From: Aureibaculum algae
Lineage (GTDB): Bacteria; Bacteroidota; Bacteroidia; Flavobacteriales; Flavobacteriaceae
NCBI RefSeq assembly: GCF_006065315.1
Contig: NZ_CP040749.1
Span: 4,920,001-4,984,000, forward strand
Reading direction: 5' to 3'
DNA: 64,000 nt
Shown here: in pieces, positions 3,738 to 5,497 of the stretch
Layout of the letters: each line of letters opens with the position of its first letter
Numbering within the stretch: position 1 is the first letter of the stretch
Position numbers and translations under genes: made by a program
The notes under the pieces: generated by a model
What the model was told of the DNA's origin: nothing
Databases searched by the model: none
The model's input: the letters and a program-made list of their open reading frames with translations, nothing else

Positions 3738-3810
3738 GGTGCCTTAGCTCAGTTGGTAGAGCAATGGACTGAAAATCCATGTGTCCCTGGTTCGAACCCT
3801 GGAGGCACCA
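3738..3810 (+). tRNA. tRNA-Phe (anticodon GAA)
   Basis: A complete 73-nt cloverleaf. The acceptor stem GGTGCCT (3738-3744) pairs with AGGCACC (3803-3809), with discriminator A at 3810. The anticodon stem ATGGA/TCCAT encloses loop CTGAAAA with anticodon GAA at 3771-3773. The T loop is TTCGAAC. CCA is not encoded, so it must be added after transcription. The T stem (CCTGG at 3786-3790 against CCTGG at 3798-3802) has a U-U mismatch at its centre. It is followed at once by a terminator and by the GIY-YIG array, whose units copy the 3' end of this gene. Confidence 0.97.
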
Positions 3811-3811
3811 C

Positions 3812-3841
3812 AAAAACCCCGAACTTTGTTTGGGGTTTTTT
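3812..3841 (+). terminator. rho-independent terminator of tRNA-Phe
   Basis: Arm AAAAACCCCGAAC (3812-3824), loop TTT, arm GTTTGGGGTTTTT (3828-3840), followed by more T. The stem has one G-U pair. The A-run and T-run on the two sides let it work in both directions. The same terminator is repeated after every downstream tRNA-tail copy at a 377-bp period. Confidence 0.9.
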
Positions 3842-3856
3842 GTTTTTAATTAAGTT

Positions 3857-4150
3857 ATGACTCACTACTTATACATAATTTATAGTATTTCTATTGACAA
3901 ATATTATATTGGTGAAACTAACAACCTCGATGAAAGGTTGATAAAACACAATAAACATCTGTATAAAAAGTCTTTCACCAAAATTGCTTCAGATTGGAAT
4001 TATGTTTTAACTAAGGAATGTCTTCAAAGAAATGATGCTATTTATCTTGAAAAATTTATTAAACGAATGAAAAGTAAAAAATTTATTGAAAAAATAATTT
4101 TAAAACCGAACATCCTTGAAGATATTCTTGATAAAAAACTACCTGAATAG
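3857..4150 (+). CDS. GIY-YIG nuclease family protein, copy 1
   Basis: 97 aa, a stand-alone UvrC-N/YhbQ-type GIY-YIG domain. It keeps the expected active-site residues: Y6 in HYLYIIYS (GIY position), Y17-I18-G19 (YIG), R27 and H31 on the following helix (LDERLIKHN), and metal-binding E65 in AIYLEKFIKR, so it is probably an active DNA-cutting enzyme. The C-terminal ~30 residues are Lys-rich. The ATG lies 10-16 nt after the T-run of the tRNA-Phe terminator and no clear ribosome binding site or private promoter is seen, so expression may depend on read-through. The protein is identical to copies 2 and 3. Function in the cell is unknown; homing, tRNA-locus recombination and DNA repair are possibilities, not demonstrated here. 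Confidence 0.9.
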   Translation: MTHYLYIIYSISIDKYYIGETNNLDERLIKHNKHLYKKSFTKIASDWNYVLTKECLQRNDAIYLEKFIKRMKSKKFIEKIILKPNILEDILDKKLPE

Positions 4151-4218
4151 CCCTGGTTCTCCCGAAGCATCGGGACTGGAGGCACCACAAAAACCCCGAA
4201 CTTTGTTTGGGGTTTTTT
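4151..4218 (+). repeat. tRNA-Phe tail with hairpin insert plus terminator, module 1
   Basis: CCCTGGTTC (as in the tRNA T arm) is followed by TCCCGAAGCATCGGGA, a perfect 6-bp hairpin with an AGCA loop, in place of the 5-nt GAACC of the real tRNA. Next comes CTGGAGGCACCA (tRNA 3' end) and the same terminator at 4189-4218. It begins directly after the stop codon of GIY-YIG copy 1. Confidence 0.9.
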
Positions 4219-4233
4219 GTTTTTAATTAAGTT

Positions 4234-4527
4234 ATGACTCACTACTTATACATAATTTATAGTATTTCTATTGACAAATATTATATTGGTGAAACTAACA
4301 ACCTCGATGAAAGGTTGATAAAACACAATAAACATCTGTATAAAAAGTCTTTCACCAAAATTGCTTCAGATTGGAATTATGTTTTAACTAAGGAATGTCT
4401 TCAAAGAAATGATGCTATTTATCTTGAAAAATTTATTAAACGAATGAAAAGTAAAAAATTTATTGAAAAAATAATTTTAAAACCGAACATCCTTGAAGAT
4501 ATTCTTGATAAAAAACTACCTGAATAG
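4234..4527 (+). CDS. GIY-YIG nuclease family protein, copy 2
   Basis: Same 97-aa protein as copy 1, with all GIY-YIG active-site positions kept (Y6, Y17-G19, R27, H31, E65). I see no nucleotide difference from copy 1, which means very recent duplication or ongoing gene conversion. Its ATG again lies just after a terminator T-run. It has no promoter of its own that I can recognise. Confidence 0.9.
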   Translation: MTHYLYIIYSISIDKYYIGETNNLDERLIKHNKHLYKKSFTKIASDWNYVLTKECLQRNDAIYLEKFIKRMKSKKFIEKIILKPNILEDILDKKLPE

Positions 4528-4595
4528 CCCTGGTTCTCCCGAAGCATCGGGACTGGAGGCACCACAAAAACCCCGAACTTTGTTTGGGGTTTTTT
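4528..4595 (+). repeat. tRNA-Phe tail with hairpin insert plus terminator, module 2
   Basis: Same structure and sequence as module 1, one period (377 bp) downstream: T-arm nine-mer, 16-nt perfect hairpin, tRNA 3' end, terminator at 4566-4595. Confidence 0.9.
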
Positions 4596-4610
4596 GTTTT
4601 TAATTAAGTT

Positions 4611-4904
4611 ATGACTCACTACTTATACATAATTTATAGTATTTCTATTGACAAATATTATATTGGTGAAACTAACAACCTCGATGAAAGGTTGATAAAA
4701 CACAATAAACATCTGTATAAAAAGTCTTTCACCAAAATTGCTTCAGATTGGAATTATGTTTTAACTAAGGAATGTCTTCAAAGAAATGATGCTATTTATC
4801 TTGAAAAATTTATTAAACGAATGAAAAGTAAAAAATTTATTGAAAAAATAATTTTAAAACCGAACATCCTTGAAGATATTCTTGATAAAAAACTACCTGA
4901 ATAG
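4611..4904 (+). CDS. GIY-YIG nuclease family protein, copy 3
   Basis: Third identical copy of the 97-aa GIY-YIG protein, in the same setting: terminator upstream, tRNA-tail module downstream. The active-site residues are intact, so selection or very recent origin keeps the reading frame open. Confidence 0.9.
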   Translation: MTHYLYIIYSISIDKYYIGETNNLDERLIKHNKHLYKKSFTKIASDWNYVLTKECLQRNDAIYLEKFIKRMKSKKFIEKIILKPNILEDILDKKLPE

Positions 4905-4972
4905 CCCTGGTTCTCCCGAAGCATCGGGACTGGAGGCACCACAAAAACCCCGAACTTTGTTTGGGGTTTTTT
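4905..4972 (+). repeat. tRNA-Phe tail with hairpin insert plus terminator, module 3
   Basis: Same as modules 1 and 2: T-arm nine-mer, hairpin, tRNA 3' end, terminator at 4943-4972. Confidence 0.9.
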
Positions 4973-4987
4973 GTTTTTAATTAAGTT

Positions 4988-5281
4988 ATGACTCACTACT
5001 TATACATAATTTATAGTATTTCTATTGACAAATATTATATTGGTGAAACTAACAACCTCGATGAAAGGTTGATAAAACACAATAAACATCTGTATAAAAA
5101 GTCTTTCACCAAAATTGCTTCAGATTGGAATTATGTTTTAACTAAGGAATGTCTTCAAAGAAATGATGCTATTTATCTTGAAAAATTTATTAAACGTATG
5201 AAAAGCAAAAAATTTATCGAAAAAATAATTTTAAAACCGAACATCCTTGAAGAAATTCTTGATAAAAAACTACCTGAATAG
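4988..5281 (+). CDS. GIY-YIG nuclease family protein, copy 4 (diverged)
   Basis: 97 aa. It differs from the other three by one residue (Asp to Glu in the segment ILEEILDKKL) and by several synonymous changes (for example CGT for CGA, AGC for AGT, ATC for ATT), all in the last third of the gene. The first two thirds match the other copies. The active-site residues are intact. Being last in the array and the only diverged copy, it may represent the oldest unit, from which the upstream copies expanded. Confidence 0.9.
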   Translation: MTHYLYIIYSISIDKYYIGETNNLDERLIKHNKHLYKKSFTKIASDWNYVLTKECLQRNDAIYLEKFIKRMKSKKFIEKIILKPNILEEILDKKLPE

Positions 5282-5349
5282 CCTTGGTTCCCCCGAAGCA
5301 TCGGGACTGGAGGCACCACAAAAACCCCGAACTTTGTTTGGGGTTTTTT
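5282..5349 (+). repeat. tRNA-Phe tail with hairpin insert plus terminator, module 4 (diverged, end of array)
   Basis: As the other modules but with two substitutions (CCTTGGTTC instead of CCCTGGTTC; CCCCGA instead of TCCCGA, which weakens one hairpin pair). The terminator at 5320-5349 is unchanged. Homology to the unit continues to 5358 and then stops, marking the right end of the array. Confidence 0.85.
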
Positions 5350-5497
5350 GTTTTTAATAAATATTCCCATTTTTCTTCATATTTAATGAATCCTTTTATT
5401 TTTTCTTTACCGAAAAAGATTATCTGTTGTAAAAAAAATTCAGACAGATTAGTTGTAAAAAAATGTAACTTGCACAACAATAAATTATGTCTAAAAC

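Follow-up and report, generated by a model that had tools for sequence, protein, structure and literature searches.

Genomic islands that use a tyrosine integrase enter the 3′ ends of tRNA genes, carry a tRNA end with which they rebuild the gene, leave the native repeat on the far side and can stand in tandem. The tyrT repeats of Escherichia coli (rtT RNA and Tpr) lie in tandem downstream of a tRNA gene, each with a 3′ tail and a small open reading frame (ORF). Repetitive extragenic palindromes (REPs) are small palindromes with a small DNA enzyme nearby, the REP-associated tyrosine transposase (RAYT). Among GIY-YIG proteins there are the small stand-alone members of UPF0213, the branched-DNA nuclease SLX1, and Ssn, the site-specific single-strand nucleases of Neisseria. 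How does an array of four tandem 377-bp units, each with one GIY-YIG gene, behind the tRNA-Phe gene of Aureibaculum algae compare with these? The array lies in a window of 64,000 nucleotides (NZ_CP040749.1, positions 4,920,001 to 4,984,000) of a genome (G000) that is a single contig of 5.17 Mb. We propose that each unit is probably a very small, site-specific selfish element, with a single gene for a GIY-YIG nuclease that is specialised on one tRNA gene.

The unit differs from the tyrosine integrase islands in having no integrase, in its length of 377 bp, in a hairpin set in its att-like tRNA copy and in the frequent occurrence of a 5′ mirror form. The tyrT repeats are shorter and encode a basic peptide instead of a nuclease, and rtT RNA was not among the Rfam matches of the window at E up to 1. 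RAYT is an HUH Y1 transposase, not a GIY-YIG protein, and no HUH Y1 domain was among the Pfam matches. Ssn nucleases are small and tied to repeated genomic sequences, as is a palindrome-flanked sister clade described below, but they are not known to involve split and rebuilt tRNA genes. Among the titles and abstract openings covered, which take in part of the literature, we found no description of GIY-YIG genes beside bacterial tRNA genes. The arrangement suggests a type of very small mobile element that has not been described before.

The tRNA-Phe(GAA) gene is the sole tRNA called in the window (ARAGORN) and scores 69.8 bits against the Rfam tRNA family. A repeat search finds four copies at an exact spacing of 377 bp, starting at 3799; the 55-nt tRNA tail plus terminator is present a fifth time at 5307 (98% identical). 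Each unit holds one 97-aa GIY-YIG ORF, four in all; units 1 to 3 are mutually identical, and unit 4 carries six substitutions in 377. The unit boundary was set at the hairpin from comparison with element-free sites: with the hairpin as the right end, unit 1 starts at tRNA position 62. The features are as follows.

3738–3811, + strand: intact tRNA-Phe(GAA), head of the array (ARAGORN; Rfam).
3799–4175, + strand: unit 1, 377 bp, comprising the tRNA 3′ tail from position 62 (common to the tRNA gene), terminator, GIY-YIG ORF, partial T-arm CCCTGGTTC and hairpin (repeat spacing; element-free sites).
3857–4150, + strand: GIY-YIG ORF 1, 97 aa (ORF list; Pfam PF01541).
4151–4188, + strand: hairpin-marked partial tRNA copy, comprising T-arm CCCTGGTTC, hairpin at 4160–4175 and tail CTGGAGGCACCAC (sequence; palindrome and hairpin searches).
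4176–4552, + strand: unit 2, same as unit 1 (repeat search; comparison).
4234–4527, + strand: GIY-YIG ORF 2 (ORF list).
4553–4929, + strand: unit 3, same as unit 1 (repeat search; comparison).
4611–4904, + strand: GIY-YIG ORF 3 (ORF list).
4930–5306, + strand: unit 4, six substitutions relative to unit 1 (comparison).
4988–5281, + strand: GIY-YIG ORF 4 (ORF list).
5307–5358, + strand: final tail with its terminator, taken to be the native pair moved outward; the flank downstream resembles that after tRNA-Phe and its terminator in the element-free congener G002 (sequence; comparison with G002).

The original prediction, made from the letters alone, had described a tRNA-Phe followed by four tandem GIY-YIG units, each opening with the tRNA tail and terminator. 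ARAGORN, the repeat search, the ORF list and Pfam bear this out. It had also noted the lack of an integrase, transposase or intron: neither an integrase nor a transposase was found in the unit, whose short ORFs (65–88 aa) lay outside the library searches, and no intron family was among the Rfam matches at E up to 1. The other unit ORFs of at least 60 aa lie on the opposite strand, except for an 84-aa TTG ORF whose start falls within the final 23 bp of unit 4. Apart from the tRNA, no known RNA, group I introns included, came near its gathering score in Rfam at E up to 1, and such a reading was set aside.

What lies at the junctions between units? Between the stop codon of each ORF and the following tail stands CCCTGGTTC-TCCCGAAGCATCGGGA-CTGGAGGCACCA, which is the T-arm of tRNA-Phe with positions 57–61 replaced by a hairpin, a feature missed at first. 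In unit 4 the outermost pair of this hairpin is C–A. The palindrome CCCGANNNNTCGGG occurs four times in the window, always at a unit junction, against 0.00 in shuffled sequence; another palindrome pattern, CCCGAWRSYWTCGGG, had the wrong length and is void. A strict script working by exact match finds a non-native hairpin in the tRNA copy at 53 of 97 loci. The remaining 44 have no match under that rule, and among these L035, L044 and L089 show a hairpin by eye. Single-copy loci likewise bear the hairpin-marked remnant. We aligned 17 Phe and Leu junctions picked by eye, excluding L039, whose hairpin is mispaired. All six pairs are intact in each (102 of 102 cells paired), and the two pairs that vary always do so on both sides, giving ten double changes, a number reached by none of 500 shuffles.

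A separate observation concerns L075 of Aquimarina litoralis, in which the T-loop of the tRNA-Phe at the array head is replaced by half a hairpin; this is either a damaged tRNA or an assembly fault.

Relatives of the array take two mirror forms. The 3′ form, found at Phe, Val, Met, Leu(TAA) and other tRNA genes, runs tRNA, terminator, GIY-YIG gene, hairpin-bearing partial tRNA copy and further terminator, the element bringing the tail and terminator. The 5′ form runs hairpin-bearing partial copy of the tRNA 5′ part, GIY-YIG gene and intact tRNA, the element bringing the 5′ part; it is found at most Pro, half of the Asp, some Asn and several Arg tRNA genes. The stop codon of the 5′-form ORF is a TAG at tRNA positions 8–10 in L005, L009, L012, L032, L053, L057 and L062. 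In the Phe type the hairpin sits between positions 56 and 62 in all 19 cases (18 loci), and in the 5′-form Asp type between 22 and 29 in four of four. The 5′-form Asn hairpins lie between 14 and 18 in three cases and between 15 and 19 in one, and the place varies in 3′-form Asn and in Pro.

Are there sites without the element? In the genus of the window (17 genomes), G000 and G001 carry the element at the tRNA-Phe site, and G004 and G011 a decayed copy; a contig end cuts it in G010 and G005, and it was not found in G006. In the other ten genomes no GIY-YIG gene lies within 256 bases after tRNA-Phe. One of the empty sites is that of G002, where the flank after the terminator resembles the flank after unit 4 in the window. 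At tRNA-Asn, in the 5′ form, a promoter-like stretch and leader precede the remnant in the occupied genomes G013 and G008; the same stretch and leader precede the tRNA itself in gene-free congeners. Flavobacterium has a recognisable gene at six of 89 tRNA-Phe sites, a count that decayed copies would escape (90 loci from 89 of the 121 genomes searched, L428 lacking a recognisable tRNA-Phe).

The origin of the terminators is visible in the genus of G167 (eight genomes). The element-free genomes G219 and G214 show a terminator of the kind taaatccttactc... directly after tRNA-Phe. In G167, G216 and G217 another terminator, aattaaaccctgca..., follows the tRNA, and G216 and G217 have it a second time, between their two units; the taaatccttactc kind stands behind the last hairpin and tail, with a mixed form in G216. 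In these three sites a foreign terminator follows the tRNA, and the native kind is displaced to the far end. G220 starts as these three do, its far end not being found by pattern, and G215 and G218 have a different start after the tRNA. Occupied and empty alleles exist at one site, as is required of a homing endonuclease element in the wide sense, and the tRNA end is rebuilt with a repeat of it at the far end, as in a tRNA-integrating island. Precise loss would leave the same empty site as no gain does; either requires mobility or recombination at the tails.

How widely is the association with tRNA genes found? Searches with the protein match 14 of the 17 genomes of the genus and 110 of 199 of the family, and a profile of 20 sequences matches 263 of 395 genomes of the phylum. 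We grouped the matches in fetched loci into 128 arrays (134 less six in repeat loci), mostly from Flavobacteriaceae, plus a small number of related bacteria, Fluviicola and Moheibacter among them. A same-strand tRNA adjoins 99 of these 128, and an opposite-strand tRNA lies within 300 bases of none. In a phylum-wide set of 70 loci (a scan plus follow-up fetches, five repeating the first set), the same-strand count is 57 and the opposite-strand count is again zero. These loci are not a random sample: they were retrieved because they resemble either a tRNA-seated protein or a profile built mostly from such proteins, and the follow-up loci were hand-picked among the matches listed. The first set carries 17 isoacceptor labels. 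No tRNA was called beside 29 of its arrays; 13 of those fall in the palindrome-flanked clade, and several others stand at contig ends or, on visual inspection, keep remnants of a tRNA.

On a tree of 123 proteins (four arrays with a best stretch below 65 residues and seven repeats were left out), the label of tRNA type, or none, changes 34 times, against a shuffled mean of 82.2, and none of 200 shuffles was as low. The tRNA labels alone change 22 times, and Val, Leu(TAA), Arg(CCT), Arg(TCT) and His need one change each. The tRNA type largely clusters by clade. With an alignment of just 94 columns and 50 of the 120 inner branches left open, the deep order of the tree is unsure.

The original prediction had asked whether homologues sit at tRNA genes rather than at random sites, whether units carry the tail of their own host tRNA, and whether close relatives have empty sites; we find homologues mainly at tRNA genes, host tails in the units and empty sites in close relatives. 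Its picture of an element seated at the tRNA 3′ end and amplified there is supported as to the seat and the amplification, but was drawn too narrowly, since a 5′-side form exists and a sister clade lives among REP-like palindromes.

Might the nuclease rather have been domesticated for tRNA processing or regulation and be expressed together with its tRNA? The strict same-strand placement, the clades that track tRNA type and the gene order of the 5′ form would suit such a role. It is nevertheless very unlikely: the gene is patchy, as the six of 89 sites in Flavobacterium and the ten empty and two decayed sites in the window genus attest; it occurs in tandem and in decayed copies; and in the 3′ form a terminator separates it from the tRNA.

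Several points weigh against a selfish element. Two of five hairpin measures (pairs with double changes and further pair types) do not rise above shuffles, because only two of the six pairs vary. The first and last terminators are alike in all six occupied Flavobacterium sites (identity 0.72–1.00), so that a foreign origin is not visible there, and the two terminators of the window also match. On the tree, there is no clustering of the Met, Ala and Arg(TCG) labels and only weak clustering of Pro(TGG). No carrier was seen, the window protein having no match in plasmids, phages or viral contigs. Finally, were the tRNA gene itself the target, the enzyme should go on cutting the intact copy next to the element.

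The terminators also bear on another explanation, local tandem duplication of a vertically inherited gene together with the tRNA tail, the hairpin being a product of decay. The near identity of the window units and the likeness of their terminators to the one after the tRNA are what duplication would leave, as is the likeness of first and last terminator at the six Flavobacterium sites. It does not account for the genus of G167, in which the terminators differ and the last is of the native kind, nor for hairpin-marked remnants at single-copy loci, nor for the mirror 5′ form at other tRNAs. Moreover, the place of the hairpin is fixed in Phe and in 5′-form Asp, and its two variable pairs covary. 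We consider duplication alone quite unlikely.

The protein itself matches Pfam GIY-YIG (PF01541) at 44.1 bits, against a cut-off of 22.6, and otherwise only T5orf172 (20.3 bits, cut-off 20). In GIY-YIG enzymes a catalytic arginine, a glutamate and a Tyr-Gly motif have active-site roles. Y17, G19, R27 and E65 are invariant in alignments of 25 and of 20 sequences, in keeping with the catalytic residues foreseen at the outset; Y6 is kept in at least 90%, and H31 and K69 are also invariant in the wide alignment. The dN/dS ratio (nonsynonymous to synonymous substitution rates) is 0.05–0.14 in the eight of ten pairs for which it could be computed, several dS values being near saturation. The proteins are under purifying selection.

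The structure model has a predicted local distance difference test (pLDDT) score of 93.5. A fold search with it gave nothing at E ≤ 0.001; UPF0213 (PDB 1zg2, E 1.2e-3) and SLX1 (from 2.1e-2) were at the top and I-TevI came later. The profile search against solved structures is clearer: UPF0213 at 1.7e-13 (with 6.9e-11 the pair of values for 1zg2 and 1ywl), SLX1 at 6.8e-6 and I-TevI at 7.3e-4. UPF0213 is thus the best profile match and is also similar in size; its records say hypothetical and hold nothing on tRNA genes. SLX1 shares the catalytic domain by profile and weakly by fold (E 0.02), and titles on it speak of branched DNA, which an extruded hairpin would be. It differs in its chains of about 300 residues, in working with SLX4 and in not being a mobile element. 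A chain of 97 residues leaves little room for an extra DNA-binding domain. A homing endonuclease of a group I intron was tried and rejected: TIGR01453 scores 19.3 bits, below its cut-off of 56.05, and no Rfam intron family appears at E up to 1.

How might a selfish element of this kind move? Its junction is a piece of the tRNA gene in which a hairpin stands for one loop or arm; junction and target match on both sides of the loop and differ only there. On insertion at that place of the tRNA, the end of the element that holds the missing part would rebuild an intact tRNA, and the native part cut off would remain beyond the hairpin as the remnant. A crossover on one side of the loop would give the 3′ form and on the other the 5′ form, with selection keeping those that rebuild the tRNA. 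The nuclease would most likely start excision and insertion by nicking either the loop of the tRNA gene or the hairpin once extruded, the DNA then probably being single-stranded or branched; host repair or strand exchange would complete the reaction. Tandem arrays could arise by repeated insertion beside the first unit or by unequal recombination between tail copies. In the 5′ form the tRNA would presumably be transcribed through the nuclease gene.

The family also has members away from tRNA genes. For the twelve proteins of one branch (support 91) no tRNA was called in the vicinity, and their genes are flanked by what by eye are REP-like palindromes. They form a sister clade of the tRNA-seated ones, the deep order being unsure. 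Three further GIY-YIG genes of the window genome (G000:C1:2308556-2308819, 2486617-2486895 and 2511593-2511850; L336, L337 and L335) also have REP-like palindromes close by, for example CGTCATTGCGAGG and TGTCATTCAGAGCG, and no tRNA was called at these loci. Could the nuclease then be the partner of dispersed hairpins, as RAYT is of REPs, with tRNA loops as one landing place among others? The sister clade and the three G000 genes speak for this, as does the correlation of hairpins per genome with GIY-YIG matches (rho 0.56 over 199 genomes, 0.72 over the 17 of the genus). The coefficient, however, falls to 0.29 once one hairpin per match is subtracted; a reversed control pattern also correlates, weakly, at 0.15; four genomes without a match hold 13–28 hairpins; and large genomes hold more hairpins and more matches alike. 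Because 0.56 weakens to 0.29, we treat the correlation as a lead only, hinting that the enzymes recognise hairpins. As an account of the whole, a REP-like system seems rather unlikely; it is compatible with the selfish element proposed here, not opposed to it.

The dispersed hairpins of G000 are mixed. Of the 11 fetched loci that were checked, seven have one or more hairpins within a frame that stays open for at least 80 codons. A 14-bp palindrome of the same kind as near the three GIY-YIG genes stands inside long open frames in L211, L228, L227, L225, L220 and L221, several of which read PEASG or PDASG there. These may be small palindromes inserted into genes, or may be plain coding sequence. 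A DUF772 transposase-domain frame in L210 (G000:C1:617900-620700) holds the palindrome twice, 781 bp apart, and palindrome pairs at 780–781 bp recur at three other places in G000.

Two further arrangements concern other mobile DNA at the arrays. L177 (G138:C1:1223200-1225500) and L176 are two arrays of tRNA-Met type about 7 kb apart, and a frame of the phage integrase family (PF00589, 44.8 bits) lies directly before the second; an island may have entered the tail of a unit here. In G172, L170 and L171 have identical sequence before the first unit of two different GIY-YIG arrays. An insertion sequence seems to have cut off the heads of these arrays, since the opposite strand of L170 reads as an ISL3-family transposase.

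More tentatively, the units could represent a new class of autonomous mobile element of less than 400 bp, in which a GIY-YIG enzyme and host repair do the work of an integrase or transposase. The enzyme would open a specific loop of a tRNA gene, probably in a single-stranded cloverleaf or hairpin form; the unit would rebuild the tRNA, and the hairpin would mark the old half. Clades dedicated to single tRNAs would then extend across Bacteroidota, with the REP-like branch as their sister. If this is true, a self-mobile unit of less than 400 bp would need one small protein, and an essential tRNA gene would be seen to be invaded without loss. The family would also provide a ready specificity series, with dozens of natural enzymes that each go with a single tRNA gene. 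It may have a bearing, too, on how small palindromes and REP-like repeats arose in Bacteroidota.

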